64,000 nt of DNA, taken from Bolinopsis microptera. Taxonomy: Eukaryota > Ctenophora > Tentaculata > Lobata > Bolinopsidae. The stretch spans positions 248,001-312,000 of the forward strand of contig NC_087075.1 of assembly GCF_026151205.1 (NCBI RefSeq). Direction: 5' to 3'. Shown piece after piece: positions 15,801 to 62,975 of the stretch. The translations under genes were made by a program, and so were the position numbers. Positions within the stretch are counted from its first letter, which is position 1. Each line of letters begins with the position of its first letter. The notes below the pieces were generated by a model. That model saw nothing but the letters and a program-made list of their open reading frames with translations. It did no database searches and was not told the DNA's origin.

Positions 15801-18800
15801 CCCTCCCTCCCTCCCTCCCTCCCTCCCTCCCTCCCTCCCTCCCTCCCCCCTCCCTCCCTCCCTCCCTACCTCCCTCCCTCCCTCCCTCCCTCCCTCCTCC
15901 CTCCCTCCCTCCCTCCACCCCTTCCTCCCTCCCCCCTCCCTCCCTCCCTCCCTCCCTCCGTCCCTCCCTCCGTCCCTCCCTCCCTCCCTCCCTCCCTCCC
16001 CCCCTCCCTCCCTCCCTCCCTCCCTCCCTCCGTCCCTCCCTCCGTCCCTCCCTCCGTCCCTCCCTCCCTCCCTCCCTCCCTCCGTCCCTCCCTCCCTCCC
16101 TCCCTCTCCCTCCTCTCCCTCCCTCTCCCTCCCTCCCTCCCTCCCTCCCTCCCTCCACCCCTTCCTCCCTCCACCCCTTCCCTCCCTCCCTCCCTCCCTC
16201 CCTCCCTCCCTCCCTCCCTCCCTCCCTCCCTCCCTCCCTCCCCTCCTCCCTCCCTCCCTCCCTCCCTCCACCCCTTCCTCCCTCCCCCCTCCCCCCTCCC
16301 TCCCTCCCTCCCTCCCTCCCTCCCTCCGTCCCTCCCTCCGTCCCTCCCTCCCTCCCTCCCTCCCCCCCTCCCTCCCTCCCTCCCTCCCTCCCTCCCTCCG
16401 TCCCTCCCTCCCTCCGTCCCTCCCTCCGTCCCTCCCTCCCTCCCTCCCTCCCTCCCTCCCTCCCTCCCTCCCTCCCTCCCTCCCCCTCCCTCCCTCCCTC
16501 CCTCCCTCCCTCCCTCCCTCCCTCCCTCCCTCCCTCCCTCCCTCCCTCCCTCCCTCCCTCCCTCCCTCCCTCCCTCCCTCCCTCCCTCCCTCCACCCCTT
16601 CCTCCCTCCCTCCCTCCCTCCCTCCCTCCCTCCCTCCCTCCCTCCCTCCCTCCCTCCCTCCCTCCGTCCCTCCCTCCCTCCCTCCCTCCCTCCCTCCCTC
16701 CCTCCCTCCCTCCCTCCCTCCCTCCCTCCCTCCCTCCCTCCCTCCCTCCCTCCCTCCCTCCCTCCCTCCCTCCCTCCCTCCCTCCCTCCCTCCCTCCCTC
16801 CCTCCCTCCCTCCCTCCGTCCCTCCCTCCCTCCCTCCCTCCCTCCCTCCCTCCCTCCCTCCCTCCCACGACTGTGGCTCAAGCCTCAACCAACGAACTAA
16901 AATGGTGACAATCGTCGCAATATATCACTAAGTGCGGACGAGACCAAAGACCACTGCAAATTAGAGATGAAAGTCAGAATGGAAACGTACGGATTCACGA
17001 ACTTAAATTATAGAGTCTACATATCTGTTTGTTTGAATTAAGGTCTCATAAAGAAAAGCAAACAAGTTTATTTTGTAAACATTGTCAGAGCTATTTACAC
17101 GTTGTTTAGAAAACAAAGTTCGCTCGGTAAACTAAGCTGCGGTTTAATAACGTGCACACTGCACACTCCTACTGCACACCCACACTGCACACCCTTACTG
17201 CACACCCACACTGCACACCCTTACTGTGACAACAGCAATCCTGTTTGTTTCCATGACAACAGCAATCCTGTTTGTTTCCATGACAACAGCAATCCTGTTT
17301 GTTTCCATGACAACAGCAATCCTGTTTGTTTCCATGACAACAGCAATCCTGTTTGTTTCCATGACAACAGCAATCCTGTTTGTTTCCATGACAACAGCAA
17401 TTCTGTTTGTTTCCATGACAACAGCAATCCTGTTTGTTTCCATGACAACAGCAATCCTGTTTGTTTCCATGACAACAGCAATTCTGTTTGTTTCCATGAC
17501 AACAGCAATCCTGTTTGTTTCCATGACAACAGCAATTCTGTTTGTTTCCATGACAACAGCAATTCTGTTTGTTTCCATGACAACAGCAATTCTGTTTGTT
17601 TCCATGACAACAGCAATTCTGTTTGTTTCCATGACAATATTTTACAGTAATCTTGTTTTTTACTTTGATAATGATCAACTTGTTTATCGCTATGACAACA
17701 GTCATCATGTTTCTATATATGACAACAGTACAAATATTTGTTGCTATGACAACGGTAATCTTGTTTGATATATTACAACAGTACAAATATTTGTTGCTAT
17801 GACAACAGTAATCTTGTTTGCTGTATGACAACAGTACAAATATTTGTTGCTATGACAACAGTAATCTTGTTTGTTCCCATTATAAAAGTTTTCATTTCAG
17901 AAGCGTCTCATACTCAAGATGATCTATCAAGCTGTGTTATTACCTCTAACGGAAGTGAGTTATTAATTACCAGATTTACATTTAAAATTATACTTAATAC
18001 ATTATTCAAAAGTTTAAGTGGAGCTAATCGTTGATTTTCAGTTGTAATTTACAAATTTTCATCCTTAAAACCACGGTTGATTTTCATCCTTAAAATCAAA
18101 ATAAATATCTGAATGAAAGTGAAAATGTTATTTCAGATTTTACCAAAACCCATAATTGGGTCTGTCTCCCTTTCCCAAACAAAAGGAGATGATATCAATT
18201 GGAATAACCGTTCTAAAATGCAAAATGATACCGAGAATGAAATGGGTCGCTCGCTTTTCCCATTTCTTCATGGCTTACGAATTTTAATCAGTTTAACTTT
18301 GGGTTTCCGTTTATTACATCGATGACACTCTCTAGAAACCCCTTAGGCCTAGGGTTGCTTTTAGGCCGATACCTAGTACTAATTGGGATAAAGGCGGTAA
18401 TAACTAGTTAGTGTCCAATTAGCTGAGGTTTATCGAATCTTTATTTCCGAGTACTGCCTCTGGGTTGTGCTGCTTAATTTATCACAATTGTAAATGAATA
18501 GAATGGGAAAAGCGAGCGACCGATTTCATTCTCGGAATCATTTTGCATTTGAGAACGGTTATTCCAATTGATATCATTTCCTTTTGTTTGAGAAAGTGAG
18601 ACACTGCAACGTTCCACTCTACCTAAATATGGGTTTTGGTAAAATATAATTTCTTTTTGGTTAATATCAGGGTCCTTGACAAAGTCGAAATGTAAAAACT
18701 TCATTATTCATTAATAAGGGGGTAATTTCAACGATTTCAAAATTGTTCCTTTTAAAACATTTCCTTGTGTTTGAATTAGTATATGTAACATTATTTCAGC

Positions 18801-21800
18801 AAGATACGGGACATGTGATATGCATAATGCAGTATGACAGTAACATTATTTCAGCAAGATACGGGACATGTGATATCCAGTATGACAGTAACATTATTTC
18901 AGCAAGATACGGGACATGTGATATGCAGTATGACAGTAACATTATTTCAGCAAGATACGGACATGTGATATGCAGTATGACAGTAACATTATTTCAGCAA
19001 GATACGGGACATGTGATATGCAGTATGACAGTAACATTATTTCAGCAAGATACGGGACATGTGATATGCAGTATGACAGTAACATTATTTCAGCAAGATA
19101 CGGGACATGTGATATGCAGTATGACAGTAACATTATTTCAGCAAGATACGGGACATGTGATATGGAGTATGACAGTAACATTATTTCAGCAAGATACGGG
19201 ACATGTGATATGCAGTATGACAGTAACATTATTTCAGCAAGATACGGGACATGTGATATGCAGTATGACAGTAACATTATTTCAGCAAGATACGGGACAT
19301 GTGATATGCAGTATGACAGTAAAATTATTTCAGCAAGATACGGGACATGTGATATGCAGTATGACAGTAACCTTATTTCAGCAAGATACGGGACATGTGA
19401 TATGCAGTATGACAGTAAAATTATTTCAGCAAGATACGGGACATGTGATATGCAGTATGACAGTAACCTTATTTCAGCAAGATACGGGACATGTGATATG
19501 CAGTATGACAGTAACCTTATTTCAGCAAGATACGGGACATGTGATATGCAGTATGACAGTAAAATTATTTCAGCAAGATACGGGACATGTGATATGCAGT
19601 ATGACAGTAACATTATTTCAGCAAGATACAGGACATGTGATATGCAGTATGACAGTAACATTATTTCAGCAAGATACGGGACATGTGATATGCAGTATGA
19701 CAGTAACATTATTTCAGCAAGATACGGGACATGTGATATGCAGTATGACAGTAACATTATTTCAGCAAGATACAGGACATGTGATATGCAGTATGACAGT
19801 AACATTATTTCAGCAAGATACGGGACATGTGATATGCAGTATGACAGTAACATTATTTCAGCAAGATACGGGACATGTGATATGCAGTATGACAGTAACA
19901 TTATTTCAGCAAGATACGGGACATGTGATATGCAGTATGACAGTAACATTATTTCAGCAAGATACGGGACATGTGATATGCAGTATGACAGTAACATTAT
20001 TTCAGCAAGATACGGGACATGTGATATGCAGTATGACAGTAACATTATTTCAGCAAGATACGGGACATGTGATATGGAGTATGACAGTAACATTATTTCA
20101 GCAAGATACGGGACATGTGATATGCAGTATGACAGTAACATTATTTCAGCAAGATACGGGACATGTGATATGCAGTATGACAGTAACATTATTTCAGCAA
20201 GATACGGGACATGTGATATGCAGTATGACAGTAAAATTATTTCAGCAAGATACGGGACATGTGATATGCAGTATGACAGTAACCTTATTTCAGCAAGATA
20301 CGGGACATGTGATATGCAGTATGACAGTAACATTATTTCAGCAAGATACGGGACATGTGATATGCAGTATGACAGTAACATTATTTCAGCAAGATACGGG
20401 ACATGTGATATGCAGTATGACAGTAACCTTATTTCAGCAAGATACGGGACATGTGATATGCAGTATGACAGTAAAATTATTTCAGCAAGATACGGGACAT
20501 GTGATATGCAGTATGACAGTAACATTATTTCAGCAAGATACAGGGACATGTGATATGCAGTATGACAGTAACATTATTTCAGCAAGATACGGGACATGTG
20601 ATATGCAGTATGACAGTAACATTATTTCAGCAAGATACGGGACATGTGATATGCAGTATGACAGTAACATTATTTCAGCAAGATACGGGACATGTGATAT
20701 GCAGTATGACAGTAACATTATTTCAGCAAGATACGGGACATGTGATATGCAGTATGACAGTAACATTATTTCAGCAAGATACGGGACATGTGATATGCAG
20801 TATGACAGTAACATTATTTCAGCAAGATACGGGACATGTGATATGCAGTATGACAGTAACATTATTTCAGCAAGATACGGGACATGTGATATGCAGTATG
20901 ACAGTAACATTATTTCAGCAAGATACGGGACATGTGATATGCAGTATGACAGTAACATTATTTCAGCAAGATACGGGACATGTGATATGCAGTATGACAG
21001 TAACATTATTTCAGCAAGATACGGGACATGTGATATGCAGTATGACAGTAACATTATTTCAGCAAGATACGGGACATGTGATATGCAGTATGACAGTAAC
21101 ATTATTTCAGCAAGATACGGGACATGTGATATGCAGTATGACAGTAACATTATTTCAGCAAGATACGGGACATGTGATATGCAGTATGACAGTAACATTA
21201 TTTCAGCAAGATACGGGACATGTGATATGCAGTATGACAGTAACATTATTTCAGCAAGATACGGGACATGTGATATGCAGTATGACAGTAACATTATTTC
21301 AGCAAGATACAGGGACATGTGATATGCAGTATGACAGTAACATTATTTCAGCAAGATACGGGACATGTGATATGCAGTATGACAGTAACGTTATTTCAGC
21401 AAGATACGGGACATGTGATATGCAGTATGACAGTAACCTTATTTCAGCAAGATACGGGACATGTGATATGCAGTATGACAGTAACATTATTTCAGCAAGA
21501 TACGGGACATGTGATATGCAGTATGACAGTAACATTATTTCAGCAAGATACGGGACATGTGATATGCAGTATGACAGTAACATTATTTCAGCAAGATACG
21601 GGACATGTGATATGCAGTATGACAGTAACATTATTTCAGCAAGATACGGGACATGTGATATGCAGTATGACAGTAACATTATTTCAGCAAGATACGGACA
21701 TGTGATATGCAGTATGACAGTAACATTATTTCAGCAAGATACAGGACATGTGATATGCAGTATGACAGTAACATTATTTCAGCAAGATACGGGACATGTG

Positions 21801-24800
21801 ATATGCAGTATGACAGTAACGTTATTTCAGCAAGATACGGGACATGTGATATGCAGTATGACAGTAACATTATTTCAGCAAGATACGGGACATGTGATAT
21901 GCAGTATGACAGTAACATTATTTCAGCAAGATACGGGACATGTGATATGCAGTATGACAGTAACATTATTTCAGCAAGATACGGGACATGTGATATGCAG
22001 TATGACAGTAACATTATTTCAGCAAGATACGGGACATGTGATATGCAGTATGACAGTAACATTATTTCAGCAAGATACGGGACATGTGATATGCAGTATG
22101 ACAGTAACATTATTTCAGCAAGATACGGGACATGTGATATGCAGTATGACAGTAACATTATTTCAGCAAGATACGGGACATGTGATATGCAGTATGACAG
22201 TAACATTATTTCAGCAAGATACGGGACATGTGATATGCAGTATGACAGTAACATTATTTCAGCAAGATACGGGACATGTGATATGCAGTATGACAGTAAC
22301 ATTATTTCAGCAAGATACGGGACATGTGATATGCAGTATGACAGTAACATTATTTCAGCAAGATACGGGACATGTGATATGCAGTATGACAGTAACATTA
22401 TTTCAGCAAGATACGGGACATGTGATATGCAGTATGACAGTAACATTATTTCAGCAAGATACGGGACATGTGATATGCAGTATGACAGTAACATTATTTC
22501 AGCAAGATACGGGACATGTGATATGCAGTATGACAGTAACATTATTTCAGCAAGATACGGGACATGTGATATGCAGTATGACAGTAACATTATTTCAGCA
22601 AGATACGGGACATGTGATATGCAGTATGACAGTAACATTATTTCAGCAAGATACGGGACATGTGATATGCAGTATGACAGTAACATTATTTCAGCAAGAT
22701 ACGGGACATGTGATATGCAGTATGACAGTAACATTATTTCAGCAAGATACGGGACATGTGATATGCAGTATGACAGTAACATTATTTCAGCAAGATACGG
22801 GACATGTGATATGCAGTATGACAGTAACATTATTTCAGCAAGATACGGGACATGTGATATGCAGTATGACAGTAACATTATTTCAGCAAGATACGGGACA
22901 TGTGATATGCAGTATGACAGTAACATTATTTCAGCAAGATACGGGACATGTGATATGCAGTATGACAGTAACATTATTTCAGCAAGATACGGGACATGTG
23001 ATATGCAGTATGACAGTAACATTATTTCAGCAAGATACGGGACATGTGATATGCAGTATGACAGTAACATTATTTCAGCAAGATACGGGACATGTGATAT
23101 GCAGTATGACAGTAACATTATTTCAGCAAGATACGGACATGTGATATGCAGTATGACAGTAACATTATTTCAGCAAGATACGGGACATGTGATATGCAGT
23201 ATGACAGTAACATTATTTCAGCAAGATACGGGACATGTGATATGCAGTATGACAGTAACATTATTTCAGCAAGATACGGGACATGTGATATGCAGTATGA
23301 CAGTAACATTATTTCAGCAAGATACGGGACATGTGATATGCAGTATGACAGTAACATTATTTCAGCAAGATACGGGACATGTGATATGCAGTATGACAGT
23401 AACATTATTTCAGCAAGATACGGGACATGTGATATGCAGTATGACAGTAACGTTATTTCAGCAAGATACGGGACATGTGATATGCAGTATGACAGTAACA
23501 TTATTTCAGCAAGATACGGGACATGTGATATGCAGTATGACAGTAACATTATTTCAGCAAGATACGGGACATGTGATATGCAGTATGACAGTAACATTAT
23601 TTCAGCAAGATACGGGACATGTGATATGCAGTATGACAGTAACATTATTTCAGCAAGATACGGGACATGTGATATGCAGTATGACAGTAACATTATTTCA
23701 GCAAGATACGGGACATGTGATATGCAGTATGACAGTAACATTATTTCAGCAAGATACGGGACATGTGATATGCAGTATGACAGTAACATTATTTCAGCAA
23801 GATACGGGACATGTGATATGCAGTATGACAGTAACATTATTTCAGCAAGATACGGGACATGTGATATGCAGTATGACAGTAACATTATTTCAGCAAGATA
23901 CGGGACATGTGATATGCAGTATGACAGTAACATTATTTCAGCAAGATACGGACATGTGATATGCAGTATGACAGTAACATTATTTCAGCAAGATACGGGA
24001 CATGTGATATGCAGTATGACAGTAACATTATTTCAGCAAGATACGGGACATGTGATATGCAGTATGACAGTAACATTATTTCAGCAAGATACGGGACATG
24101 TGATATGCAGTATGACAGTAACATTATTTCAGCAAGATACGGGACATGTGATATGCAGTATGACAGTAACATTATTTCAGCAAGATACGGGACATGTGAT
24201 ATGCAGTATGACAGTAACATTATTTCAGCAAGATACGGGACATGTGATATGCAGTATGACAGTAACATTATTTCAGCAAGATACGGGACATGTGATATGC
24301 AGTATGACAGTAACATTATTTCAGCAAGATACGGGACATGTGATATGCAGTATGACAGTAACATTATTTCAGCAAGATACGGGACATGTGATATGCAGTA
24401 TGACAGTAACATTATTTCAGCAAGATACGGGACATGTGATATGCAGTATGACAGTAACATTATTTCAGCAAGATACGGGACATGTGATATGCAGTATGAC
24501 AGTAACATTATTTCAGCAAGATACGGGACATGTGATATGCAGTATGACAGTAACAATATTTCAGCAAGATACGGGACATGTGATATGCAGTATGACAGTA
24601 ACAATATTTCAGCAAGATACGGGACATGTGATATGCAGTATGACAGTAACAATATTTCAGCAAGATACGGGACATGTGATATGCAGTATGACAGTAACAT
24701 TATTTCAGCAAGATACGGGACATGTGATATGCAGTATGACAGTAACATTATTTCAGCAAGATACGGGACATGTGATATGCAGTATGACAGTGGCCTTATT

Positions 24801-27800
24801 TCAGCAAGATACGGGACATGTGATATGCAGTATGACAGTAACATTATTTCAGCAAGATACGGGACATGTGATTTGCAGTATGACAGTAACATTATTTCAG
24901 CAAGATACGGGACATGTGATATGCAGTATGACAGTAACATTATTTCAGCAAGATACGGGACATGTGATATGCAGTATGACAGTAACATTATTTCAGCAAG
25001 ATACGGGACATGTGATATGCAGTATGACAGTAACAATATTTCAGCAAGATACGGGACATGTGATATGCAGTATGACAGTAACATTATTTCAGCAAGATAC
25101 GGGACATGTGATATGCAGTATGACAGTAACATTATTTTAGCAAGATACGGGACATGTGATATGCAGTATGACAGTAACATTATTTTAGCAAGATACGGGA
25201 CATGTGATATGCAGTATGACAGTAACATTATTTCAGCAAGATACGGGACATGTGATATGCAGTATGACAGTAAAATTATTTCAGCAAGATACGGGACATG
25301 TGATATGCAGTATGACAGTAACATTATTTCAGCAAGATACGGGACATGTGATATGCAGTATGACAGTAACATTATTTCAGCAAGATACGGGACATGTGAT
25401 ATGCAGTATGACAGTAACATTATTTCAGCAAGATACGGGACATGTGATATGCAGTATGACAGTGGCCTTATTTCAGCAAGATACGGGACATGTGATATGC
25501 AGTATGACAGTAACATTATTTCAGCAAGATACGGGACATGTAATATGCAGTATGACAGTAACATTATTTCAGCAAGATACGGGACATGTGATATGCAGTA
25601 TGACAGTAACATTATTTCAGCAAGATACGGGACATGTGATATGCAGTATGACAGTAACATTATTTCAGCAAGATACGGGACATGTGATATGCAGTATGAC
25701 AGTAACATTATTTCAGCAAGATACGGGACATGTGATATGCAGTATGACAGTAACATTATTTCAGCAAGATACGGGACATGTGATATGCAGTATGACAGTA
25801 ACATTATTTCAGCAAGATACGGAACATGTGATTTGCAGTATGACAGTAACGTTATTTCAGCAAGATACGGGACATGTGATATGCAGTATGACAGTAACAT
25901 TATTTCAGCAAGATACGGGACATGTGATATGCAGTATGACAGTAACATTATTTCAGCAAGATACGGGACATGTGATATGCAGTATGACAGTAACATTATT
26001 TCAGCAAGATACGGGACATGTGATATGCAGTATGACAGTAACGTTATCCCTCTTGCCTCCTCACAAGTAAGTTCTTCTTAATCAACAATAAATTTACCAT
26101 CACTACAATTGAACGGAGTCATTTGCTGTAGCAGCGCTATCTCCTATACCTACCTATGTACCTACCTATATCTCGTACCAATTTATTTTGTATTTGCTTT
26201 CACATAAGTTTTTATCGAGTCTACTCGCGCAACAACGAGCGCAAAGTGGCCTGGCACAAGCATCAACATTCAATAAGGGGACTGTTAAAACAAAATGATC
26301 ATTTTCAAAATCTTTCTTTTTTTGTAAATTATATTAATATTAAATCTAAATGAAAATCTAAATCTTATTGTTATTATCTTAACAGTCACAGGTCATTGTT
26401 GTAACTTAAGATTTTAAATTTGTATTCCTTGTATTCCTTGTATTCCTATTCCTTTACTAACTGAAGACCGACTCCAAGTGTATGGGTGACATTAAATGGT
26501 GTGATGTGTTACTTGTTCAATGACGTCACTACTTGTTTAATGACGTCACTACTTGTTTAATGACCTCACTACTTGTTTAATGACGTCATTACTTGTTTAA
26601 TGACGTCACTACTTGTTTAATGACGTCACTACTTGTTTAATGACGTCACTACTTGTTTAATGACGTCACTACTTGTTTAATGACGTCACTACTTGTTTAA
26701 TGACGTCACTACTTGTTTAATGACGTCACTACTTGTTTAATGACGTCACTACTTGTTTAATGACGTCACTACTTGTTTAATGACGTCACTACTTGTTTAA
26801 TGACGTAACTACTTGTTTAATGACGTCACTACTTGTTTAATGACGTCACTACTTGTTTAATGACGTCACTACTTGTTTAATGACGTCACTACTTGTTTAA
26901 TGACGTCACTACTTGTTTACCTCAGAGCGAAGTGAGCACAGCAGGGACTGATAATACGGATGTAAAGCCGCCCTACAGTTACGTTGCTATGATAGCAATG
27001 GCTATAAGGGACTCTCCAGAGAAGAAGCTAACGTTAAGTCAGATTTATCAGTACATTATCGACAAGTTCCCTTACTACAACAAGAATAAGAAAGGTAAGT
27101 TATTGTAAACGGGATGTTATACACGTAATTACACATAAATCCCTTACTCCTTCGTAAATCTAACAAAGTATGGAATCGACCCTTTAAATAACAGCCCAAA
27201 TTATGGGTTTTGAGGTACATCAACACAAAATTCTGAAGTTAAGAAAAATTTCAAACGATTGTCTACAGACCAGTTTTTGGATTTTGTAATTTCGATATTC
27301 AGAAGTAAAGTTATGACCCGTTGAAAAATATTGATTTCATCATAAAATACACATAAAATTTCAAACACGCCAATAATTCTGACACATTTATCTCTGGTAA
27401 ATTACGAGATTCGAGTTTTTTAATTTCCCTTCCCCTGCTTATTGGGAGTGAGTAAACAATAATCTACCAGGTTCCCGGTATTACGATAACAATAAAACTA
27501 CAATTTACCAGGTTCCCGGTATTACGATAACAATAAAACTACAATTTACCAGGTTCCCGGTATCATGATAACAATAAAACTGTAATCTACCAGGTTCCCG
27601 GTATCACGATAACAATAAAACTGTAATCTACCAGGTTCCCGGTATTACGATAACAATAAAACTGTAATCTACCAGGTTCCCGGTATCATGATCACAATAA
27701 AACTGTAATCTACCAGGTTCCCGGTATTACGATAACAATAAAACTACAATTTACCAGGTTCCCGGTATCATGATTACAATAAAACTGTAATTTACCAGGT

Positions 27801-30800
27801 TCCCGGTATCATGATAACAATAAAAGGGATAAAACTACAATTTACCAGGTTCCCGGTATCATGATAACAATAAAACTACAATTTACCAGGTTCCCGGTAT
27901 TACGATAACAATAAAACTGTAATTTACCAGGTTCCCGGTATTACGATAACAATAAAACTACAATTTACCAGGTTCCCGGTATCATGATAACAATAAAACT
28001 GTAATTTACCAGGTTCCCGGTATCATGATCACAATAAAACTGTAATCTACCAGGTTCCCGGTATTACGATAACAATAAAACTACAATTTACCAGGTTCCC
28101 GGTATCATGATTACAATAAAACTGTAATCTACCAGGTTCCCGGTATCATGATAACAATAAAAGGGATAAAACTACAATTTACCAGGTTCCCGGTATCATG
28201 ATAACAATAAAACTACAATTTACCAGGTTCCCGGTATTACGATAACAATAAAACTGTAATTTACCAGGTTCCCGGTATTACGATAACAATAAAACTACAA
28301 TTTACCAGGTTCCCGGTATCATGACCACAATAAAACTGTAATCTACCAGGTTCCCGGTATCATGACCACAATAAAACTGTAATCTACCAGGTTCCCGGTA
28401 TCACGATAACAATAAAACTGTAATTTACCAGGTTCCCGGTATTACGATAACAATAAAACTATAATCTACCAGGTTCCCGGTAAAATGATAACAATAAAAC
28501 TGTAATTTACCAGTTTTACCAGAACCTACACTTTAATATACTTTAATATGGTTCAAAATTTTGAATGGAGATAATATAGGTATATTAAAGTATATTAAAG
28601 TTTAATATGGTTCCCCCCCCCCCCCCCCCCCCAATAAAACTGTAGTCTACCAGGTTCCAGGTATAATGATCCCAATAAAACTATAATTTACCAGGTTGGC
28701 AGAACAGTATCCGCCATAATCTGTCGCTGAACGAGTGTTTCGTGAAGATTCCTCGGGAAGGAGGAGAGAGGAAGGGGAACTACTGGACCCTGGATCAGAG
28801 TTGTGATGATATGTTTGAGAAGGGAAATTACAGGTGGGACTAGGATCCAATCAATTATATTTTTATTTATGTTAGTCAACAGTTGTGCAGCTGCAGCAGA
28901 ACTAGGATGATGCTACAGAAGACAACTTAGCAAAATATTGACTTTTCCAAGAAAATAATTATAAACCCAATCAGTCTACCTAGTTAACTTTGAAACGTCA
29001 ACTGAACCCAAATGTCACTAGAAATCTAGGGATCACTTGACAATCAAACAGGTTTTCACATTTAAGCTACCTCCCACTTTTAATTTTTGGTGAAAATTAA
29101 AAGTTGGATAATAACGGTGTTGCACTATGCCCTGCTACTAAAGTAACGTGCACGTGTAAACATTACTGGAATAACATTATCATCAGTTTTGTTGTCATTA
29201 CGTAGTGTTTAGTCATTGCTACATTTGATTGGCTGTATCTGAGGTCGGGATGGATATTTCTTGATACGATAAAAACTGACTCTCTAAGATTGAGTAATAA
29301 TGCAACCACGGGCATTTTAGTTAAATATAAAGATATGTTTTTATAGACATTTTTGTCTTGAACACGTCCCGGGCTAACGTACGTACGTGCGTTCCAAAAA
29401 CAAAGGCGCGAGATCTGAGCCTAACCGGTGCAGTTGTAATATGACCTGGGTTCAGTTATCGTTTTGGGATTTAGGCTGACTAGGCACCCGATTAAGCTGA
29501 TTGGGCGCCCTGTTAACAGTGTTGCACCCCGATTCTAAACGATCGCCCAATTTTACAGCCAAACATTTTATCTCAACGTTTATAAAAAAATAGATCTGGT
29601 ACCCTGGTTTAACGCAATTTTATGACTTTAGTGACTTAGTAGCAGAGTATACAGTTATACAATATACACTTCATCCGGAAACCTAAATCATATTTTTGAC
29701 CGACTTTCTCAGAAGGAGGCGGAGAATGAAGCGCCCGATTAGACCCTCTCCATACTCAACACGACTATACGGACACATCAACTTTCCTTACAACCACCAA
29801 GTAAGTACATACTCAACACGACTATACGGACACCTCAACTTTCCTTACAACCACCAAGTAAGTACATACTCAACACGACTATACGGACACCTCAACTTTC
29901 CTTACAACCACCAAGTAAGTATATACTCAACACGACTATACGGACACCTCAACTTTCCTTACAACCACCAAGTAAGTACATACTCAACACGACTATACGG
30001 ACACCTCAACTTTCCTTACAACCACCAAGTAAGTACATACTCAACACGACTATACGGACACCTCAACTTTCCTTACAACCACCAAGTAAGTACATACTCA
30101 ACACGACTATACGGACACCTCAATTTTCCTTACAACCACCAAGTAAGTACATACTCAACACGACTATACGGACACCTCAACTTTCCTTACAACCACCAGG
30201 TACATAAATTATAATTAATTACATAATTAATTATCTACTCCAGTAGCAGGGAGGGGTTGAGTGTGCACTTCGATGTATAGAGTTTTTTGCTACTGAATCG
30301 GGTTAAATAGGTCATTGGTAACTCAAATCACCGAGGGGCGCATTTTGTATCGCTAGTCCCAGTCCTACAGGGCGAAATTTCTAAATTGCCCTCGGGCGAA
30401 AATTTGGGATTTTTGTATCTCGGCTTCTAAAAGACTTAGAGATTTGAATATTGGCTTAAAATAACCGCAATAGCCTTATTTATATACAAGTTATGAAGCA
30501 ATCTAAGGTCTCAAGTGCCTAGTTTTAAAGATATTCACGAAAAACCGTTTTTTGGCTCATCGCAGCCTGAAATACCGGATTATTTTTTATCTCGAGCTAG
30601 AAAGGTCGTAGAAACTTCTCCTATATTGAAAAATATGCGCAATGAGCACATTTATATAAGACTTATGAATCATTATATGCTCTAAAATGCTTATTTGTAG
30701 AGATATTAGCAAAAATCGGTAATTTTGGTTACACCAATACAAATTTGGTAATTCATTTTGTCTTTTTGTTGCAAATATTCACGTTGCAATTTTCAAGATG

Positions 30801-33800
30801 CAGTTTGTTGCTATCGATAGGACTTTATATGCTATTGCATGGTTTTGATACAATCCTTCAGCACCTGACATAGGCAATAGGGGTCACAAACCCTGAAATG
30901 TCAGGAACTGGGCAGTGGCCGAGATAAATATTTGATAATTACTTGGACTCTTGACTCACATACATCTTTTCAACGGTTAGTTAGACATCTTAAACCAGTA
31001 TTGAACGTTGAGTAAAACTTCTGATCCATTTGTAGCTCAAGTGATGTGCCCCAAAACCTCACGCCTGAGTGACAGTGGGCCTTATCGATCATGAGCCGCA
31101 AATCACAATGACTTTGGGCCTCAGAGACAAGGGCATTCGTACTCTTGGCTTAAATTGGCTCTTCGTTAGTATCATCGATCAGGTTTCTAACTTCTATATC
31201 ATCTGCCTGTCCAGTGTCCATCCGTCTCTTTGGGATTCATTATTACTTCAAGTTCAGCCATTTCGCTTCTGTTCAACTGTAGGCGTAATGAGGGACTTGA
31301 GTCCAGCAATAAAGTCAATATCTCTAGATTTAGCAATATCTGGTTTTGCTACTTTTAAGGTAATTGTGTTCAGCAAGCAAGTTTATAAGTTTTCAGTCGT
31401 ACTGCCCCAAAGTATTGGCCCCCAGGGCACCAGTAATGCTGGAGCACTGGTAATGCACATGGTAATTATACTGATTTTTTGCTTATCATTGCTCATTTTT
31501 AAGTTCCTTTTTCAGCAGTCTTCCCTATCATACTGGCAAAAAACAGATTCACCTCCTTTATCTCTAAATATAATTTTGAACCTGGGCTATACAGGTTATC
31601 GAATGTCCACCAACCTCGTGCCCCAATTATTGTCAGCCCCAGGACCTCTCGCACCTGCAACTTTGGGTCCCAAAACTTGAAGAACTTCGGGCCCAACGAT
31701 ACCTGTCCTTCAGTGACTCTGTGCCCCACATAATTCTAATTTATGACTCAATGTAAATTGTAAATGCTAAGATGGACATTCGATAACCTGTAGAGCTCAG
31801 GTTCAAGATTATATTTAGAGATAAAGGAGGTGAATCTGTTTTTATTGCCAGTATGATAGGGAAGACTGCTGAAAAAGGAACTTAAAAATGAGCTATGTTA
31901 AGCAAAAAATCAGCATAATTACCATGTGCATTAACCAGTGCTCCAGCATTACTGGTGCTCTGGGGGCCAATACTTTGGGGCAGTACGACTGAAAACTTAC
32001 AAACTTGCTTGCTGAACACAATTACCTTAAAAGTAGCGAAACCAGATATTGCTAATTGACTTTATTGCTGGACTGAAGTCCCTCATTACGCCTACAGTTG
32101 AACAGAAGCGAAATGGCTGAACTTGAAGTAATAATGAATCTCAAAGAGACGGATGGACACTGGACAGGCAGATGATATAGAAGTTAGAAACCTGATCGAT
32201 GATACTAACGAAGAGCCAATTTAAGCCAAGAGTACGAATGCCCTTGTCTCTGAGGCCCAAAGTCATTGTGATTTGCGGCTCATGATCGATAAGGCCCACT
32301 GTCACTCAGGCGTGAGGTTTTGGGGCACATCACTTGAGCTACAAATGGATCAGAAGTTTTACTCAACGTTCAATACTGGTTTAAGATGTCTAACTAACCG
32401 TTGAAAAGATGTATGTGAGTCAAGAGTCCAAGTAATTATCAAATATTTATCTCGGCCACTGCCCAGTTCCTGACATTTCAGGGTTTGTGACCCCTATTGC
32501 CTATGTCAGGTGCTGAAGGATTGTATCAAAACCATGCAATAGCATATAAAGTCCTATCGATAGCAACAAACTGCATCTTGAAAATTGCAACGTGAATATT
32601 TGCAACAAAAAGACAAAATGAATTACCAAATTTGTATTGGTGTAACCAAAATTACCGATTTTTGCTAATATCTCTACAAATAAGCATTTTAGAGCATATA
32701 ATGATTCATAAGTCTTATATAAATGTGCTCATTGCGCATATTTTTCAATATAGGAGAAGTTTCTACGACCTTTCTAGCTCGAGATAAAAAATAATCCGGT
32801 ATTTCAGGCTGCGATGAGCCAAAAAACGGTTTTTCGTGAATATCTTTAAAACTAGGCACTTGAGACCTTAGATTGCTTCATAACTTGTATATAAATAAGG
32901 CTATTGCGGTTATTTTAAGCCAATATTCAAATCTCTAAGTCTTTTAGAAGCCGAGATACAAAAATCCCAAATTTTCGCCTGAGGGCAATTTAGAAATTTC
33001 GCCCTGTAGGACTGGGACTAGCGATACAAAATGCGCCCCTCGGTGATTTGAGTTACCAATGACCTATTTAACCCGATTCAGTAGCAAAAGACTCTATACA
33101 TCGAAGTGCACACTCAACCCCTCCCTGCTACTGGAGTAATCATAATTATTTACATAATTAATCAAATAATTATTTTCATAATTAATCAAATAATTATTTT
33201 CATAATTAATTACATAATTAATTTTATAATTAATCAAATGATTAATTTTATAGTTAATTAAATGATAAATTCTATAATTAATTACACTTACATGATTAAT
33301 TTTATAATTAATTGCATGATTGTGACTATATAATTGATGATATAACTATGATTACTATATAGTATTCACCTACAGGGGCTATCAGGGAACTGGAAGAGTT
33401 ACAACTACCTGTCAGCCCCCTGGCAGAACAAAGTGTCCCCCCTGAACCTGTACGCGTACAACAACACCACTCCTCGCGTTCAGTCCCTACAACCTCTCCC
33501 TCCTGTAAACCCTCCTCCTTTTAGCATGTCTCCTCCTGAGTACTCAAGGTATTGGGAGTGTGTGACGTCACGTTAAGGAGTGTGTGACGTCACGTGAGGG
33601 AGTGTGTGACGTCACGTTAGGGAGTGTGTGACGTCACGTGAGGGAGTGTGTGACGTCACGTGAGGGAGTGTGTGACGTCACGCGGTCACGTGAGGGAGTG
33701 TGTGACGTCACGTGAGGGAGTGTGTGACGTCACGTGAGGGAGTATGTGACGTCACGTGAGGGAGTGTGTGACGTCACGTGAGGGAATGTGTGACGTCACG

Positions 33801-34403
33801 TGAGGGCTGTGTAATAAGAAGTGAGAAGTGTGTAAATTTACGTAAAGTGTGATGTAAGATATGAAACTGAATTTTAAGCCCTTCACCTTTCAGGCAGTTA
33901 GAAGATCATGATCAGATATCATATAGTTTGCAAATGCTAGCCAATAGACAGACTCCACTTTCAAACATTTCGTTGGTAAGCCACTTGTAGTTTGATATAA
34001 TATGTTCATTTATAACGTAATCATTTTTTGGCCAATTTTTAACCCTCCCTCCTCCGTAATCTGTTTTACACATAGCTTAATTGTGTTAAAATTAAACTAG
34101 CGTAATCATTGAGAACCCCCCCCCCCTCTCAGTGATAACGTAATATGTAAACGAATCCATATATATACGTTTTCAACCAGTTTTCTGCAATGCTCGGTCG
34201 ATATTTCTACGCTTGGAGCAATTTTACTCATCGTTACATAGTTAACCGATAGGCAATATAAAGTGTGTTCATTTCAGAGCAGACAAGAGCCCCAGCTCGG
34301 GTTCTGTGCACCGCCCTACATTACCAGTACTGAGAACAACACATTCGCTCTCAAGACTGAGGACACTTCTTCCGCCTCCTGCAACTTCAACCCTAGCCTC
34401 TGA
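6855..34403 (+). CDS. foxl2: Forkhead transcription factor, FOXL2-like, seven-exon model
   Basis: Nuclear DNA-binding transcription factor. Exons: 6855-6989, 26926-27094, 28695-28833, 29713-30199, 33376-33548, 33894-33975, 34278-34403 (TGA at 34401); every junction is GT-AG and all phases close. Exons 2-3 encode the forkhead domain: [27 protein letters not shown], then [15 protein letters not shown] (recognition helix) and [10 protein letters not shown]-like [10 protein letters not shown]. Exon 4 starts [11 protein letters not shown], the basic tail typical of FOXL2; that tail and the NECF and [12 protein letters not shown] words are why I choose FOXL2. The protein is 436 residues if the last donor of exon 4 is used, 303 if the first is used. 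Exon 1 (45 residues, begins [10 protein letters not shown]) joins in phase but lies 20 kb upstream, so its membership is less certain than exons 2-7. No poly(A) signal was identified. Introns are filled with minisatellites. Confidence 0.88.
7347..7496. mobile_element. 150-bp MITE with TA target duplication
   Basis: The ends are imperfect inverted repeats of about 20 bp (left ccttatcggacgttatttga; right tcaaataaagtctgataagg), flanked by TA on both sides (7345-7346 and 7497-7498). It is in forkhead intron 1. TA duplication suggests a Tc1/mariner-type non-autonomous element; this is inference. Confidence 0.65.
7985..9300. repeat. 10-bp minisatellite (taacacaggt) with G-rich interruptions
   Basis: A tandem 10-bp unit with tataacacag/tacaacacag variants, best preserved at 8030-8330. 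From 8440 it is broken by G runs up to about 20 nt and decays to irregular G-rich DNA. The reverse-strand frames rich in LYLCYTCV are repeat artefacts. In forkhead intron 1. Confidence 0.9.
9301..10560. repeat. Degenerate purine-rich repeat (ggaatagag words)
   Basis: Long strand-asymmetric purine-rich tract made of loosely conserved ggaatagagg units. No coding frame. In forkhead intron 1, continuous with the G-rich decay of the preceding array. Confidence 0.8.
10561..12699. other. Intronic sequence without recognised genes
   Basis: Mostly unique intron sequence of the forkhead gene. It contains homopolymer runs (C at about 12007, A at 12360-12385) and several cacgtg/catgtg words, but nothing I can assign. 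Short open frames show no family similarity I recognise. Confidence 0.5.
12700..13165. repeat. 10-bp minisatellite (taccactata)
   Basis: About 45 copies of a 10-bp AT-rich unit with occasional 2- or 4-bp slips. The open frame within it (TTIYHIPLY words) is an artefact. Confidence 0.95.
13240..14600. repeat. 30-bp minisatellite with tatcagcag core
   Basis: About 45 copies of a 30-bp unit containing tttagtttactaatattata followed by gtatcagcag. Many units have single-base indels at both edges, while the centre (13680-14040 and 14200-14470) is more homogeneous. Confidence 0.95.
14601..15649. other. Intronic sequence without recognised genes
   Basis: Unique AT-rich intron sequence with poly-A/poly-C runs near 15150. 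Nothing identifiable. Confidence 0.5.
15650..16864. repeat. 1.2-kb polypyrimidine microsatellite (CCCT)n
   Basis: About 300 copies of ccct with scattered variant blocks (ccacccctt, ccgt, extra C). The + strand is almost pure pyrimidine over 1.2 kb. Long frames in four of the six readings are artefacts. The variant blocks recur at intervals, indicating higher-order duplication within the tract. Confidence 0.98.
17226..17880. repeat. 27-bp minisatellite carrying an X-box-like word
   Basis: About 15 tight 27-bp copies to 17638, then about five degenerate copies to 17880. Each tight copy contains gtttccatgacaac, which fits the degenerate nematode X-box pattern RTHNYYWTRRNRAC (recalled, not looked up). 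Frames on both strands are open only because 27 is divisible by three. The array ends about 20 bp before a candidate exon. Confidence 0.95.
17901..17954 (+). other. Candidate 54-bp cassette exon in forkhead intron 1
   Basis: Flanked by a strong 3' splice site (a pyrimidine-rich run ending ttcatttcag) and a GAA|gtgagt donor, with a length divisible by three. It could therefore be included between exons 1 and 2 without a frame change, adding [19 protein letters not shown] recognise no homology for that peptide. Another frame ([17 protein letters not shown]) looks more protein-like but does not fit the neighbouring phases. Could be a chance pairing of splice sites. Confidence 0.3.
18129..18660. 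repeat. Inverted repeat, arms about 150 bp
   Basis: 18129-18270 (including accaaaacccat and cgagaatgaaatgggtcgct) recurs in inverted orientation at 18495-18655 with a few mismatches, around a spacer of about 225 bp. It looks like a fold-back element; no target duplication identified. Confidence 0.75.
18789..26050. repeat. 7.3-kb satellite-like array of a 48-bp unit, about 150 copies
   Basis: Extremely homogeneous 48-bp units containing attatttcagcaagatacgg and gtgatatgcagtatgaca. Common variants change one or two bases (accttattt, aaaattattt, acgttattt, acaatattt, gtggcctta). Rare units lose or gain one G in the gggaca word, which changes the open frame and produces the long artefactual frames. 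The array starts at a sequence resembling a 3' splice site (gtaacattatttcag) and its last unit runs into a donor-like CTCACAA|gtaagt at 26066. Confidence 0.98.
26051..26512. other. Intronic sequence between two arrays
   Basis: Unique AT-rich intron sequence with a short tattccttg triplication near 26420. Nothing else recognised. Confidence 0.5.
26513..26919. repeat. 20-bp minisatellite of CRE palindromes
   Basis: About 20 copies of a unit made of tgacgtcactacttgtttaa. All but two retain the full TGACGTCA palindrome, the consensus binding site of CREB/ATF bZIP factors. The last copy leads directly into the acceptor of forkhead exon 2 (acttgtttacctcag|AGC), so the unit includes the sequence just upstream of that splice site. 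Confidence 0.97.
27458..28690. repeat. 41-bp minisatellite filling forkhead intron 2
   Basis: About 30 copies of a 41-bp unit containing tttaccaggttcccggtat and gataacaataaaac. The acceptor of exon 3 is ...tttaccag|GTTGG, so each unit carries a copy of that acceptor and the first exon bases. A larger block of about 336 bp, marked by aaaagggataaaac, is duplicated at 27823 and 28158. Confidence 0.97.
29752..30199 (+). repeat. Eight 57-bp coding repeats spanning the exon 4 splice donor
   Basis: Exon 4 of the forkhead gene ends in eight tandem copies (the last ends at the final donor) encoding [19 protein letters not shown]. Seven copies contain CACCAA|gtaagt and the eighth CACCAG|gtacat. All eight donors leave phase 0, so splicing at any of them keeps the frame with exon 5 and adds 19 residues per retained unit. 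Confidence 0.95.
30237..33138. repeat. 2.9-kb near-perfect palindrome in a forkhead intron
   Basis: The left arm (about 30237-31608) and right arm (about 31772-33138) are inverted copies of about 1.37 kb with very few differences, separated by a 160-bp spacer. The ends read ctccagtagcaggg...ccctgctactggag, with TA on both sides, which could be a TA target duplication. The open frame at 31069-31680 shows no family I recognise. It fills nearly the whole intron between exons 4 and 5 and lies in AT-rich cataattaatt repeats (to about 33330). I infer a fold-back transposon or inverted duplication. Confidence 0.9.
33555..33805. repeat. 22-bp minisatellite with CRE plus E-box
   Basis: About 11 copies of a unit containing gtgtgtgacgtcacgtgagg. 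It merges a TGACGTCA palindrome (bZIP) with a CACGTG E-box (bHLH-Zip) by overlap. It begins within about 7 bp of the donor of forkhead exon 5. Confidence 0.95.
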
Positions 34404-34529
34404 ACACTTGTAGACTCTACTCACCCCTAAAGTAGACTCTACTCACCCCTAAACGGGCCGCGCACGAAAATACTGTGATGGAGCTTTTTGCATGAGACTG
34501 AGATAGTGAGTTGTAGGTTTAAAGGAGCA

Positions 34530-40049: not shown

Positions 40050-40057
40050 AGGTTTGT

Positions 40058-40776: not shown

Positions 40777-40804
40777 TAATCATAACAACACACAATACCA
40801 GCAC

Positions 40805-40964
40805 GTGTTGTGACGTCACAGTTACGTCACAACACGTGGTGCGACGTCACAGTTACGTCACAGTGTTTACTGTTTGGACACAGCACGTGGTGTGACGTCA
40901 CAGTGTTTACTGTTTACTGTTTGGACACAACACGTGGTGTGACGTCACAGTTACGTCACAGTGT

Positions 40965-40976
<12 letters not shown>
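40805..40976. repeat. CRE-containing repeats overlapping the GAPDH stop codon
   Basis: Three to four imperfect copies of cacgtggtgtgacgtcacag plus ttacgtcacagtgtttactg. The tttactgtttggacac word is the reverse complement of the last GAPDH codons (ATG TCC AAA CAG TAA), so the unit includes the end of the coding sequence. Confidence 0.8.
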
Positions 40977-52020
<11,044 letters not shown>

Positions 52021-54346: not shown

Positions 54347-54570
54347 ATATTCTTCGGAATCAATACTAATAATCCCAAAATGTGTGTCACTGTGTCTGTC
54401 TGTCTGTAGGTAATTTCTGAGCAGTTTAATTAAGACAACGGTAAGAGTTATGTGACTGGTTTTTTCGGTATAGTGCCGACAAAACTCTGACGAAGCCAAA
54501 TGATTAAGGTTTTCAAATCGGTCGTGGTTTTAAAGAAAGCAGTTCTATAGCAATTCTATATTATATTCTT
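54347..54570. repeat. Dispersed repeat, copy 2
   Basis: Related to 36418-36640: both share aatgtgtgt, a cggt(t/a)agagttat word, tggttttttc and aaaactctgacgaagccaa in the same order. Confidence 0.65.
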
Positions 54571-54744
54571 ACCGTTTTCTTGATTAAGCCGTTCGGAAAT
54601 TACACACAATTAATATCTTGCATAACAAGTAATATCTTGCATAATTAGTATAGAACAAACTCTGATGAACGGTAAGTGAGGAAAAGTTTTATTTAGTTAT
54701 TAATAATCAGTATGTGTATATTATATATTATATAATACTGATAC

Positions 54745-58375: not shown

Positions 58376-59224
58376 GTAAAAATCACAGGTGTGCTATTTT
58401 ATTTTTATTATGATCAACAATAGACAACAAATTCAATTTTCTGTATACCATTTTAACAGATTCAACTTTAATATAATCTTCAAAATTAGCATAAAATTAG
58501 CATTTGAAAAGAAAAACGGTGTTTAAGATTTTACTTGTACATGTTGGTTGGTGGTTATTTAGTTTACCTTAGATCGATTTATCTTTTAAATTTATCCATA
58601 TAAAGCATAAATTTATAACTACGGTAAATAATACAGGGTGGGAGGATGTTCAAAGGAATTATCAAACTTTCTGGATGTGGGCTAAGTTTTCGGATTAAGA
58701 ATTGCCATCGAAATTGTTTAATTGCTCGATTATCAACCGACAACCGGTCCCTGATTTATTGCTTATTAACGGGGTTCACCCTAATTTGCTTGCGAAACTT
58801 GTTTTCGAAATAGCCAGTTGACCATCAAACTAGGGCTCACCAAACGTTTGAGGAGGACCCCAAACTGCCACTGGTGCCTGTGGTGCACACATGCCCAATC
58901 ATGCCAAATCAACTCAATAGCCCAAAATCCAGATTAAACAAAAATGGCTAAGGTATGAGCCAAAAAAGAGGTATGCCCATATTTGGACATAAGCACCAAA
59001 TTTGTTAGCTTTTGAATCATTTAAATTTGTCAAATTATATAAATATTTTCGAATGAGACCAACTTTATATGAAAGGTTAGCCTAAACTACATAATCTCTG
59101 TGATCTATAGCGTAATATCTGTTGAAATGTGGATACTAAAGCGAATAGACCGCCAAGAATTAACAAAATTGCCCATATTATATATCGGTCCACAATATTC
59201 GCAAAATAAAAGTGAACTTATCAA
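58376..59224. other. Sequence between two LINE copies
   Basis: AT-rich unique sequence; no gene recognised. Confidence 0.5.
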
Positions 59225-60570
59225 AATTCACTTTTATTACTCAGAGAGAATCAGTGTGGTTTCAGGAGAAACCGTTCTTGTATAGATCAGCTGTACTCAC
59301 TTCATTGTATAATACACAATTGTATAGAATTCAACGTCCCTTTGTACATAAACTTTATTGATTTTAAAGCTGCTTTTGATTCAATCAATCGTGACTTTAT
59401 TTGGAAAGCTTTTGAACATTATGGTCTTCCGACAAAATATATCAATGTTTTCAAAGCGTTCTTTAGAGCAACTGAAAGTGCAGTTCGTGTCAATGGAGAA
59501 TTGACAAGATGGTTTGATGTCGATTCGGGGACTGGACAAGGTGATGTGCAAGGGCCCCCTATTTTTAATCTTGTACTTAACTGGGGATTAGAACTTGCAG
59601 AGAAGTTTAAGAATATATCCCGTGGTTTTACACTTCAGTACAGACAAAGTTCCAGACAACCGGAAAAATGTGTCATTGATCTTGACTATGCTGATGACAT
59701 CGCAGGAATGGATGACACTGTTGAAGGACTGCAAGAAACTACGGACAATATTGCGAAATACTGTGGACTTGGGGGTTTAAAAATGAACGCAAAGAAAACA
59801 GAGATCATGGTCATTGGGAAAGATACATCGCAGCACCCACTCCCAGAGAATAGGACCATAGATATAACTGTCGATGGAAACTCTGCAAAGCAGGTCACTC
59901 AATTCACTTATTTGGGTGCCAAAATTACATCAGATGGCAAGATTGATAAAGAAATAAGTGTCAGGATTGGAAAAGCAACCGGAGCTTTTAACCAACTCAA
60001 CAACATTTGGAAGAATAAGAACATAAGCATTAACAACAAAGTGCGAATCTACATCGCAGCTGTTCTTACCATTCTGACCTATGGATGTGAGATATGGAAC
60101 ACGACTCAAGTGCAGACAAGAAGATTGGAGTCTTTCCATCAGTACTGCTTAAGAAGAATCCTGAGAGTGAGGTGGTTCCATCGAGTAAGTAATGAGGATG
60201 TTTTAAGAAGGGCATCGATAACTGCCCTTGCTGACATAATAACAACAAAACGGCTGCGTTGGTTTGGACATGTCAGTAGAATGCCTGAAGATCGGTTGCC
60301 CAACTATTTACTTGAATGGAAACCCAAGCATGGGAAGAGATCAAGAGGCAGGCCTAGGAAGAGCTTAAATGATGTATTCATTGAGGATGCTGAGCAGAGA
60401 TTGGATCGTAATGGACTCACGATTGATTGTATGAGAAGATTAGCTGCAGACCGAAAGGGATGGAGAAATGTTACCCGCCGAAGTTGTATAATACAAAGTA
60501 ATGACGCAGTCGACGCAGACTAATCCTTTTGGATGGAGATCTCGCCATGTAACATGTAACATGTATGTAT
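59225..60570 (+). mobile_element. 5'-truncated non-LTR retrotransposon with open reverse transcriptase
   Basis: An open frame of about 425 codons runs from about 59236 to the stop at 60521 (an internal ATG is at 59342). It carries RENQCGFRRNRSCIDQ, FIDFKAAFDSINRDF, SGTGQGDVQGPPIFN, DLDYADDIAGMDD (catalytic YADD) and LKMNAKKTEIM. The C-terminal part carries TYLGAKITSDG, LRWFGHVSRMPEDRLPNYL and KRSRGRPRKSLNDVF. The endonuclease and any ORF1 are missing, so it is a dead-on-arrival copy, but its frame is intact and so it is younger than the copy at 54745-58375. The 3' end is acatgtaacatgtatgtat, like the tail of the other copy, so they are probably the same or sister families. Confidence 0.92.
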
Positions 60571-61239: not shown

Positions 61240-62975
61240 TCATCTGTTGTTGTACATCATGAAAGCGAACATAAGAGCCACAAATAGAGCGCCCTGTAAC
61301 CCAAATATTAGACCAGCAACCAAACAGAGGACTAACATTACAGGTTCTATAACCATCTGGGGAGACAACCTGCCAGGGAGTGCAGTGTTACAGTAGTAAC
61401 ACTAGTAATAGTAGTGGTGTTACAGTAGTAACACTAGTAGTAGTAGTGTTACAGTAGTAACACTAGTAGTAGTAGTGTAACAGTAGTAACACTAGTAGTA
61501 GTAGTAGTGTTACAGTAGTAACACTAGTAGTAGTAGTGTTACAGTAGTAACACTAGTAGTAGTAGTGTTACAGTATTAACACTAGTAGTAGTAGTGTAAC
61601 AGTAGTAACACTAGTAGTAGTAGTGTTACAGTAGTAACACTAGTAGTAGTAGTGTAACAGTAGTAACACTAGTAGTAGTAGTGTTACAGTAGTAACACTA
61701 GTAGTAATGGTGTTAAAGTAGTAACACTAGTAGTAGTAGTGTAACAGTAGTAACACTAGTAGTAGTAGTGTAACAGTAGTAACAAGTTAGTAGTAGTAGT
61801 GTTACAGTAGTAACACTAGTAGTAGTAGTGTAACAGTAGTAACACTAGTAGTAGTAGTGTTACAGTAGTAACACTAGTAGTAGTAGTGTAACAGTAGTAA
61901 CACTAGTAGTAGTAGTGTAACAGTAGTAACACTAGTAGTAGTAGTGTTACAGTAGTAACACTAGTAGTAGTAGTGTTACAGTAGTAACACTAGTAGTAGT
62001 AGTGTTACAGTTGTAACACTAGTAGTAGTAGTGTTACAGTAGTAACACTAGTAGTAGTAGTGTAACAGTAGTAACACTAGTAGTAGTAGTGTTAGTACAG
62101 TAGTAACACTAGTAGTAGTGGTGTAACAGTAGTAACACTAGTAGTAGTAGTGTTACAGTAGTAACACTAGTAGTAGTAGTGTAACAGTAGTAACACTAGT
62201 AGTAGTAGTGTTACAGTAGTAACACTAGTAGTAGTATTGTTACAGTAGTAACACTAGTAGTAGTAGTGTTACAGTAGTAACACTAGTAGTAGTAGTGTTA
62301 CAGTAGTAACACTAGTAGTAGTAGTAGTGTTACTGTATTAACACTAGTAGTACTGTAGTGTTAGTAGTAGTACAAACAATAGGATACTACAGCGCAGCCG
62401 CAAAAAGCTAATTTCGAGGTTGGAAACTACAATAGAATTACATTAAAAGATCGAAATTTTGAAGCCAGCTTTTCGCGTCTGAGCAGATAGCAAGCTACAT
62501 TATTATTATATAGAGTTTTTCAACCTTCTAGCAAGAACTAAAATTTGCGTTTCTTTAACATACCTTATCTTTGGTACTCCAGCAAGTTCCAAGCGTTGAT
62601 TAAACTGGAACAAGGGTTCTGGTAGTCCTAGATTGTTCTGTGGTCGAGCCTAAAATACGGGCATTATTTTGCTTCTCTGTGACGTGATAAGCCCAGTTTT
62701 ATTTTGAAAATATAGCGCACAATAGATCATACTTATCGCAAGTTAAATTCTAATTAATTAGGTTAAAAGCTAGAGGTTCTAATTAATTAGGTTAAAAGCT
62801 AGAGGTTAAAATATAAACTCACATCACCCTGAACTTCTGATCCAAGGGAAGCTGTTCTGTTCATTGGTGGAGCAGGGGCAGGGTTATTATTGCGGTGTAC
62901 AGATCCGCGTGATCTGTAACGCACTGCACGCGGGTCGTCGTCTGAAACTACCTCTCCATTGATTATAACCGCCAT
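61240..62975 (-). CDS. FAM241 family small membrane protein, complete
   Basis: Exons in coding order: 62823-62975, 62564-62649, 61240-61369. Phases close (153+86+130 = 369 bp; 122 residues plus TGA). The N-terminus MAVIINGEVVSDDDPRAVRY matches the FAM241 signature of a short hydrophobic start followed by DDDPR; then comes a basic, proline- and asparagine-rich linker. The C-terminal segment VMLVLCLVAGLIFGLQGALF and onward is one hydrophobic stretch, so a single membrane anchor is likely, ending YNNR. Human FAM241B is about the same length with the same layout (from memory). Its biochemical function is not known to me. Intron 2 is filled with a minisatellite that abuts the last acceptor. It lies on the same strand as the COMMD10-like gene, about 550 bp downstream of it. 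Confidence 0.85.
61385..62370. repeat. ~29-bp minisatellite filling FAM241 intron 2
   Basis: About 34 copies built from gtaacactagtagtagtagtg plus ttacagta or taacagta. On the - strand the array ends within about 15 bp of the acceptor of the last exon (ctccctggcag), with the first repeat-like bases (taacactgcac) already part of it. Confidence 0.97.

Follow-up and report, generated by a model that had tools for sequence, protein, structure and literature searches.

Tandem repeats that run across exon-intron boundaries, termed 'mirages', have been described in lancelets, in Adh3, troponin C, the globins BflGb6 and BflGb9, and PGBD5, the first description being that of Canestro et al. 2002 as cited in the later reports (PMC3087553, PMC3902484). 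In those two reports, the units measure 10-72 bp in Adh3 and 60-160 bp in the globins and PGBD5, many but not all of them carry AG/GT, and splicing is reported to be normal. In this study, we examined a 64,000-nucleotide stretch of the genome of the ctenophore Bolinopsis microptera (Lobata; contig NC_087075.1, positions 248,001 to 312,000; 'the window'), in which minisatellites crowd the exon-intron junctions of FOXL2, GAPDH and FAM241. We consider it rather probable that these are mirage-type minisatellites in a ctenophore and that, for the most part, the position of their edges is set by constraint and not by seeding at the junction. We also think that a minority of the arrays originated in duplications that crossed an exon edge, or incorporated such duplications.

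Two further systems bear on this locus. In genes within human segmental duplications, minisatellites with units of about 30 bp lie at exon-intron boundaries, alter gene structure and can form introns (PMC2812944). The Rogers model proposes that introns are gained through tandem duplication of exon segments containing AGGT, the copies bringing both GT and AG, with 24-bp repeats in fission yeast as an example (PMC4974935).

Array edges and splice sites

Tandem arrays occupy 40.5% of the window according to Tandem Repeats Finder (TRF), which recovered the arrays named in the original prediction, an earlier reading of the same DNA made from its letters. For the ctenophore Hormiphora, the genome report states that TRF marked 13% of the genome (PMC8527503). 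The introns that we examined are about 42% occupied by young, homogeneous arrays with units of 10-57 bp. Between array edge and splice site (Table 1), the gap measures 3-7 nt on the donor side and 0-16 nt on the acceptor side, in both cases roughly the size of the splice signal. The FOXL2 exon 4 donor falls within the 57-bp array, and the 41-bp array, whose end as called by TRF is 181 nt from the FOXL2 exon 3 acceptor, continues as diverged copies through that acceptor.

To obtain an expectation, each array was placed uniformly in its own intron, with lengths fixed, and its distance to the nearer splice site was scored. The counts leave out GAPDH intron 6, which holds four arrays and a putative nested gene, and the 57-bp array was also left out except in one alternative run. 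When the 17 arrays are taken as TRF calls them, 8 lie within 16 nt of a splice site, where 2.89 are expected (P=0.0003), and 4 lie within 7 nt, where 1.36 are expected (P=0.029); the threshold-free Fisher value of 0.0051 is the conservative figure. Counting FOXL2 intron 4 from the first 57-bp copy gives 9 of 18 arrays (2.92 expected, Fisher 0.0002), and unmerged arrays of at least 100 bp (n=11) give a Fisher value of 0.0032, which ranges from 0.0014 to 0.016 as single arrays are left out. Once three arrays split by inserts are rejoined, 10 of 14 lie within 16 nt (3.44 expected), a count reached in 0 of 100,000 simulations (Fisher 0.00065). Every one of the nine merged arrays of at least 150 bp is that close (2.44 expected, Fisher 0.0002), and with the two exon-entering arrays dropped the merged count is 8 of 12 (3.13 expected, Fisher 0.0089).

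The inserts differ from one array to the next. In GAPDH intron 1, the 30-bp array is broken by an element (49661-50447) with 25-bp perfect terminal inverted repeats, within whose ends we also observed 10-bp sub-repeats. The AT-rich array of FOXL2 intron 4 is broken by an inverted repeat (30236-33138) with arms of 1,084 nt that are 100% complementary, and none of 4,000 random stretches attains the score of the flank. A short AT-rich insert with a run of C, which by eye resembles a small transposable element, breaks the 41-bp array of FOXL2 intron 2 at 28514-28630. The residual 41-bp copies beyond it score 92, equalled by 1 of 2,000 'random' stretches, and that one stretch is probably the same site left unmasked.

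The original prediction held that arrays lie within a few bases of splice sites in four independent genes and that random intronic minisatellites would not do this. The latter argument is borne out, in that uniform placement within the same introns predicts fewer edges near splice sites. By position, nine of the ten cases it named stand. Counting against the proximity, eight of the 17 arrays lie more than 30 nt from any splice site, and TRF finds no array in 4 of 16 introns. The tenth case is the exon 4 acceptor of the putative nested gene, which is unverified, and the number of genes accordingly comes down to three, namely FOXL2, GAPDH and FAM241.

Exon bases within the units and the origin of the arrays

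Thirteen repeat units were aligned with 35 junction windows, and single scores were also compared with random stretches from outside the arrays. On the exon side, scores rise above the rest at three places only: 48 at the FOXL2 exon 4 donor, whose unit holds 50 exon bases, 50 at the FOXL2 start and 26 where the GAPDH coding region ends. At the GAPDH exon 3 donor, the unit reads CATATCACAG/GTACG and the gene CACATCACAG/GTACG (the slash marks the junction), so that 14 of 15 bases match across the junction, a score that none of 4,000 random stretches attains; the exon part alone scores 15, ranks behind an unrelated exon and is equalled by 58 of 4,000 random stretches. Judged from this alignment, the GAPDH unit probably includes about 10 exon bases. 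At the FOXL2 exon 3 acceptor (TTTACCAG/GTT), the diverged 41-bp copies share three exon bases only, GTT, and this sole acceptor case is marginal. For six arrays (FOXL2 introns 1 and 5; GAPDH introns 1, 4 and 8; FAM241 intron 2), similarity to the adjoining 25 exon bases is not above background. Units that span a boundary, as in the lancelet mirages, are found at donors in two genes: clearly at FOXL2 exon 4 and probably at GAPDH exon 3.

Arrays also include the start codon of FOXL2 and the stop codon of GAPDH, neither of which is a splice site, and the common factor would seem to be coding edges in general rather than splicing. The 48-bp unit joins an acceptor-like TTATTTCAG to the FOXL2 start codon and the first 18 coding bases. 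Of this array, 23 bases lie in FOXL2 exon 1, and 22 of these 23 coding bases match the unit, as in 0 of 4,000 random stretches; over the coding end of GAPDH, 13 of 13 bases match the 3' array (again 0 of 4,000). We considered the 48-bp array as a maintained coding repeat and rejected this, since the reading frame is lost at 7 of 148 spacings between copies and is closed 698 codons upstream, and since, of 36 substitutions in 140 full-length copies, 35 are non-synonymous. With about 150 start codons and acceptor-like sites, and with the trans-spliced leaders of ctenophores, the same array could offer many start exons.

The 57-bp array at FOXL2 exon 4 could itself be translated, as a coding minisatellite of eight 19-residue repeats whose true donor is that of the last copy. 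The unit length of 57 is divisible by three and is kept exactly in all 7 spacings, no stop lies in frame, and phase is preserved with either donor. Every internal copy nonetheless carries a strong donor, CAA/GTAAGT (score 8.0), and two relatives, P0001 and P0002, have a single copy of this exon 4 segment, so that the additional copies were apparently gained within this lineage. The single copy in the relatives argues against translation but is not decisive, and we regard a coding array as a minority possibility, though one to be taken seriously.

We envisage that short tandem duplications arise throughout these genes and lengthen through unequal exchange or slippage. Where a duplication crosses an exon edge, it would be tolerated, as one intact edge is used and the extra copies, within an intron or untranslated region, are removed or ignored. 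A duplication within an intron could grow up to the minimal splice signal (about 3-7 nt for a donor, 0-16 nt for an acceptor), at which point selection would halt it; an array near an acceptor would then have to provide both the branch point and some of the pyrimidine tract. Copy divergence along the arrays (11 rows) shows no gradient, the junction end being about as homogeneous as the far end, and the direction of growth is therefore not visible. Both this lack of polarity and the lack of exon similarity in six arrays are expected if the junction stops, rather than starts, most arrays.

A duplication mechanism that starts at junctions, for example through AG/GT microhomology or breaks at exon-intron borders, with units that later drift from the exon, would account for the exon bases in the FOXL2 exon 4 and GAPDH exon 3 units and for the closeness of all the merged arrays of at least 150 bp. 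The resemblance of one unit to an acceptor and the frequency of AGGT, both given below, also speak for it. We nevertheless think it unlikely, because six arrays have no exon similarity above background, copy divergence has no gradient from the junction, and start and stop codons bear arrays as well. The original prediction, which offered such a mechanism or else selection that tolerates or favours the arrays, is upheld insofar as a splice site together with exon bases is present in some units, yet junction-started duplication lacks support as a general rule, and tolerance fits better. Likewise, its claim that the unit contains the junction and exon bases in four cases is reduced to one clear, one probable and one marginal case, the fourth belonging to the unverified nested gene.

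A positive function, in which arrays are kept as splicing signals (branch points, pyrimidine tracts or many U1 sites) or as enhancers, appears very improbable. Branch points usually lie at a distance from the acceptor that places them within the acceptor-side arrays; all five of these begin at 0-16 nt from the AG and should thus enclose the branch point, and donor-like scores are high in the FOXL2 57-bp (p 0.002) and GAPDH 31-bp (p 0.010) units. Against this, acceptor-like signal is not enriched over the units (Fisher 0.126), the units show no relatedness to each other, and some introns splice without any TRF array. Plain packing, by which a 40% array content and short introns would put edges near splice sites by chance, is suggested by several introns that are almost full, with individual p values of 0.61 for GAPDH intron 4 and 0.26 for the merged FOXL2 AT-rich array. 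As an account of the whole pattern, packing into short introns is rejected by the uniform-placement tests, in which intron and array lengths are fixed and which still give Fisher values of 0.0002-0.005, according to how arrays are merged (0.0014-0.016 in the leave-one-out runs); we hold it to be improbable.

Several points weigh against our reading. Both the 16-nt cut-off and the rejoining of split arrays were picked after the data had been seen, and the sample is three genes from a single window, in which arrays of the same gene may share a history. Contact is mostly one-sided, only the GAPDH intron 4 array coming near both intron ends; growth halted by constraint on both sides should make two-ended contact common, and one-sided contact leaves room for seeding. 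The 24-bp unit of GAPDH intron 8 resembles the exon 9 acceptor at the intron's far end (4 of 4,000 random stretches). Donor-like sites are mildly enriched in sense units (Fisher 0.015; antisense 0.19; the two strands of ten further arrays give 0.19 and 0.78), although the weight matrix for donors and acceptors is small, built from 16 introns that include the very junctions the arrays resemble, which makes this a weak test. Of the 13 sense units, 4 contain AGGT, where 1.40 are expected, as does 1 of 13 antisense. Together, the donor-like and AGGT enrichment in sense units favours an origin at junctions oftener than the exon matches show. Lastly, the splice junctions were inferred from DNA and homologues rather than from RNA reads of this animal, and P0001 is 8 residues short where FOXL2 exon 6 ends, so that the exon 6 donor may differ from our model.

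Gene models and other features of the window

For FOXL2, GAPDH and FAM241, the reconstructed exons find support in protein comparison. The GAPDH model is 100% identical, across 100% of its length, to a named Bolinopsis microptera protein, and a further homologue, P0122 (336 aa), differs at one residue. P0122 stems from four contigs, each 1,079 bp or less and so too short to contain the GAPDH introns, indicating that its exons were already joined; we take its source tag, 'lgn', to denote Logan assemblies of public reads. P0001 (264 aa, 96% identical, with a Forkhead domain by Pfam), whose contig does not exceed 1,602 bp, agrees with 5 of 6 FOXL2 junctions, and P0002 is 69% identical. The FAM241 model matches Pfam PF15378/DUF4605 (E=2.3e-11) over residues 66-120, crossing the last junction at residue 80; DUF4605 presumably corresponds to FAM241. 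The mRNA-length contigs of GAPDH homologues show normal exon joins. The FOXL2 contig of mRNA length is joined normally too, but it represents the 96% identical relative, whose own gene may be without the array.

The putative gene nested in GAPDH intron 6 had no match among 1,952 candidate homologues at E<=0.001, and its three Pfam matches each fall below the curated cut-off. In Hormiphora, genes nested within introns are a common feature, and leaders are added by trans-splicing (PMC8527503). The putative nested gene also contains a 48-bp array (43225-43803) with an open frame, in which 11 of 11 spacings are exactly 48.

Table 1. Positions of gene models and tandem arrays, counted from the first nucleotide of the window.
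Feature	Position	Strand	Basis or relation to genes
FOXL2 coding region, 7 exons	26025..34403	+	Exon-by-exon rebuild with GT-AG junctions; homologue P0001
FOXL2 exons 1-4	26025-26066, 26926-27094, 28695-28833, 29713-29800 (or end at 30199)	+	
FOXL2 exons 5-7	33376-33548, 33894-33975, 34278-34403	+	
GAPDH coding region, 9 exons	40966..52020	-	Rebuilt with GT-AG junctions; protein match
FAM241 gene model	62975-61250	-	GT-AG rebuild; Pfam match
48-bp array, ~150 copies, 7.2 kb	18827..26047	+	TRF; ends within FOXL2 exon 1
20-bp array, 20.5 copies	26510..26919	+	6 nt upstream of FOXL2 exon 2 acceptor
41-bp array	27460..28697	+	Broken at ~28514-28630, resumes, crosses FOXL2 exon 3 acceptor
57-bp array, 7.9 copies	29751..30202	+	Unit: final 50 bp of FOXL2 exon 4, then donor GTAAGTA
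AT-rich 24-bp array	30203..33321	+	Begins at last-copy FOXL2 exon 4 donor; resumes 33141-33321
22-bp array	33554..33806	+	5 nt downstream of FOXL2 exon 5 donor
~50-bp array	40802..40978	-	Covers final 12 coding bases and stop codon of GAPDH
24-bp array	41243..42132	-	3 nt downstream of GAPDH exon 8 donor
28-bp array, 66 copies	44467..46313	+	Claimed acceptor of putative nested gene; unit has TTACAG, CTGCAG/GTAGG
11-bp array filling GAPDH intron 4	47614..48131	-	12 nt from acceptor, 30 nt from donor
31-bp array	48476..49059	-	7 nt downstream of GAPDH exon 3 donor
30-bp array	49507..50899	-	16 nt upstream of GAPDH exon 2 acceptor (intron 1); split by element 49661-50447
29-bp array	61384..62372	-	14 nt upstream of FAM241 last-exon acceptor

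Other features were seen in the window. A 19-bp array (34529-35676) lies directly 3' of the FOXL2 stop codon, its unit containing a donor-like AGAGGTAACT. A 2.56-kb stretch (37489-40050) is enclosed by 31-nt perfect inverted repeats and has further inverted repeats nested within it. TAGGGT, the usual animal telomere repeat, is present in 86 copies at 3209-3724, away from the window end, and a 164-bp unit occurs in two identical copies at 1541-1870. An open frame of 435 aa at 59216-60523 encodes a reverse transcriptase domain (RVT_1, E=1.5e-21). A Pfam scan of a possible gene at 63.5-64.0 kb returned no match, and the Rfam and tRNA scans of the window each gave 0 matches.

Comparison with described systems

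Structures of this kind are already known from the lancelet mirages, and the ctenophores are a new phylum for them. Among the matches listed in the open-access literature, neither work on ctenophore minisatellites or tandem repeats and introns nor the papers citing the lancelet studies yielded such a report. Boundary-spanning minisatellites have been presented as peculiar to lancelets and as one way in which new introns might arise. If our reading holds, the comb-jelly case and the excess of array edges at splice sites would amount to a recurring process across distant animals, and the origin of long or new introns would become testable in a chromosome-scale, repeat-rich genome. Mirage-type arrays may accordingly be a recurring route of intron growth. 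The broader proposition, that the edges of ctenophore coding segments are genome-wide hot spots at which minisatellites are born or come to rest, feeding intron growth or gain convergently with lancelets, is one that we put forward tentatively and regard as rather doubtful.

Among single-gene cases, the minisatellite of human IFI6 (6-16) has a splice donor in each repeat; unlike the Bolinopsis arrays, it concerns one gene and a short unit. The boundary repeats of human segmental duplications resemble those of Bolinopsis in being minisatellites at exon-intron boundaries, but they are recent, variable repeats in duplicated primate genes, whereas the Bolinopsis arrays occupy conserved genes that are single-copy as far as seen (PMC2812944). 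With respect to the Rogers model, the difference is that the Bolinopsis arrays lie in or beside introns and point to intron growth only, no new intron being shown (PMC4974935). The lancelet mirages, whose arrays span 5' or 3' exon-intron boundaries in several genes of one genome, are the closest parallel. Unlike these, the Bolinopsis arrays mostly abut the splice site without including exon bases, two of them lie on start or stop codons, and their copies reach 66-150.

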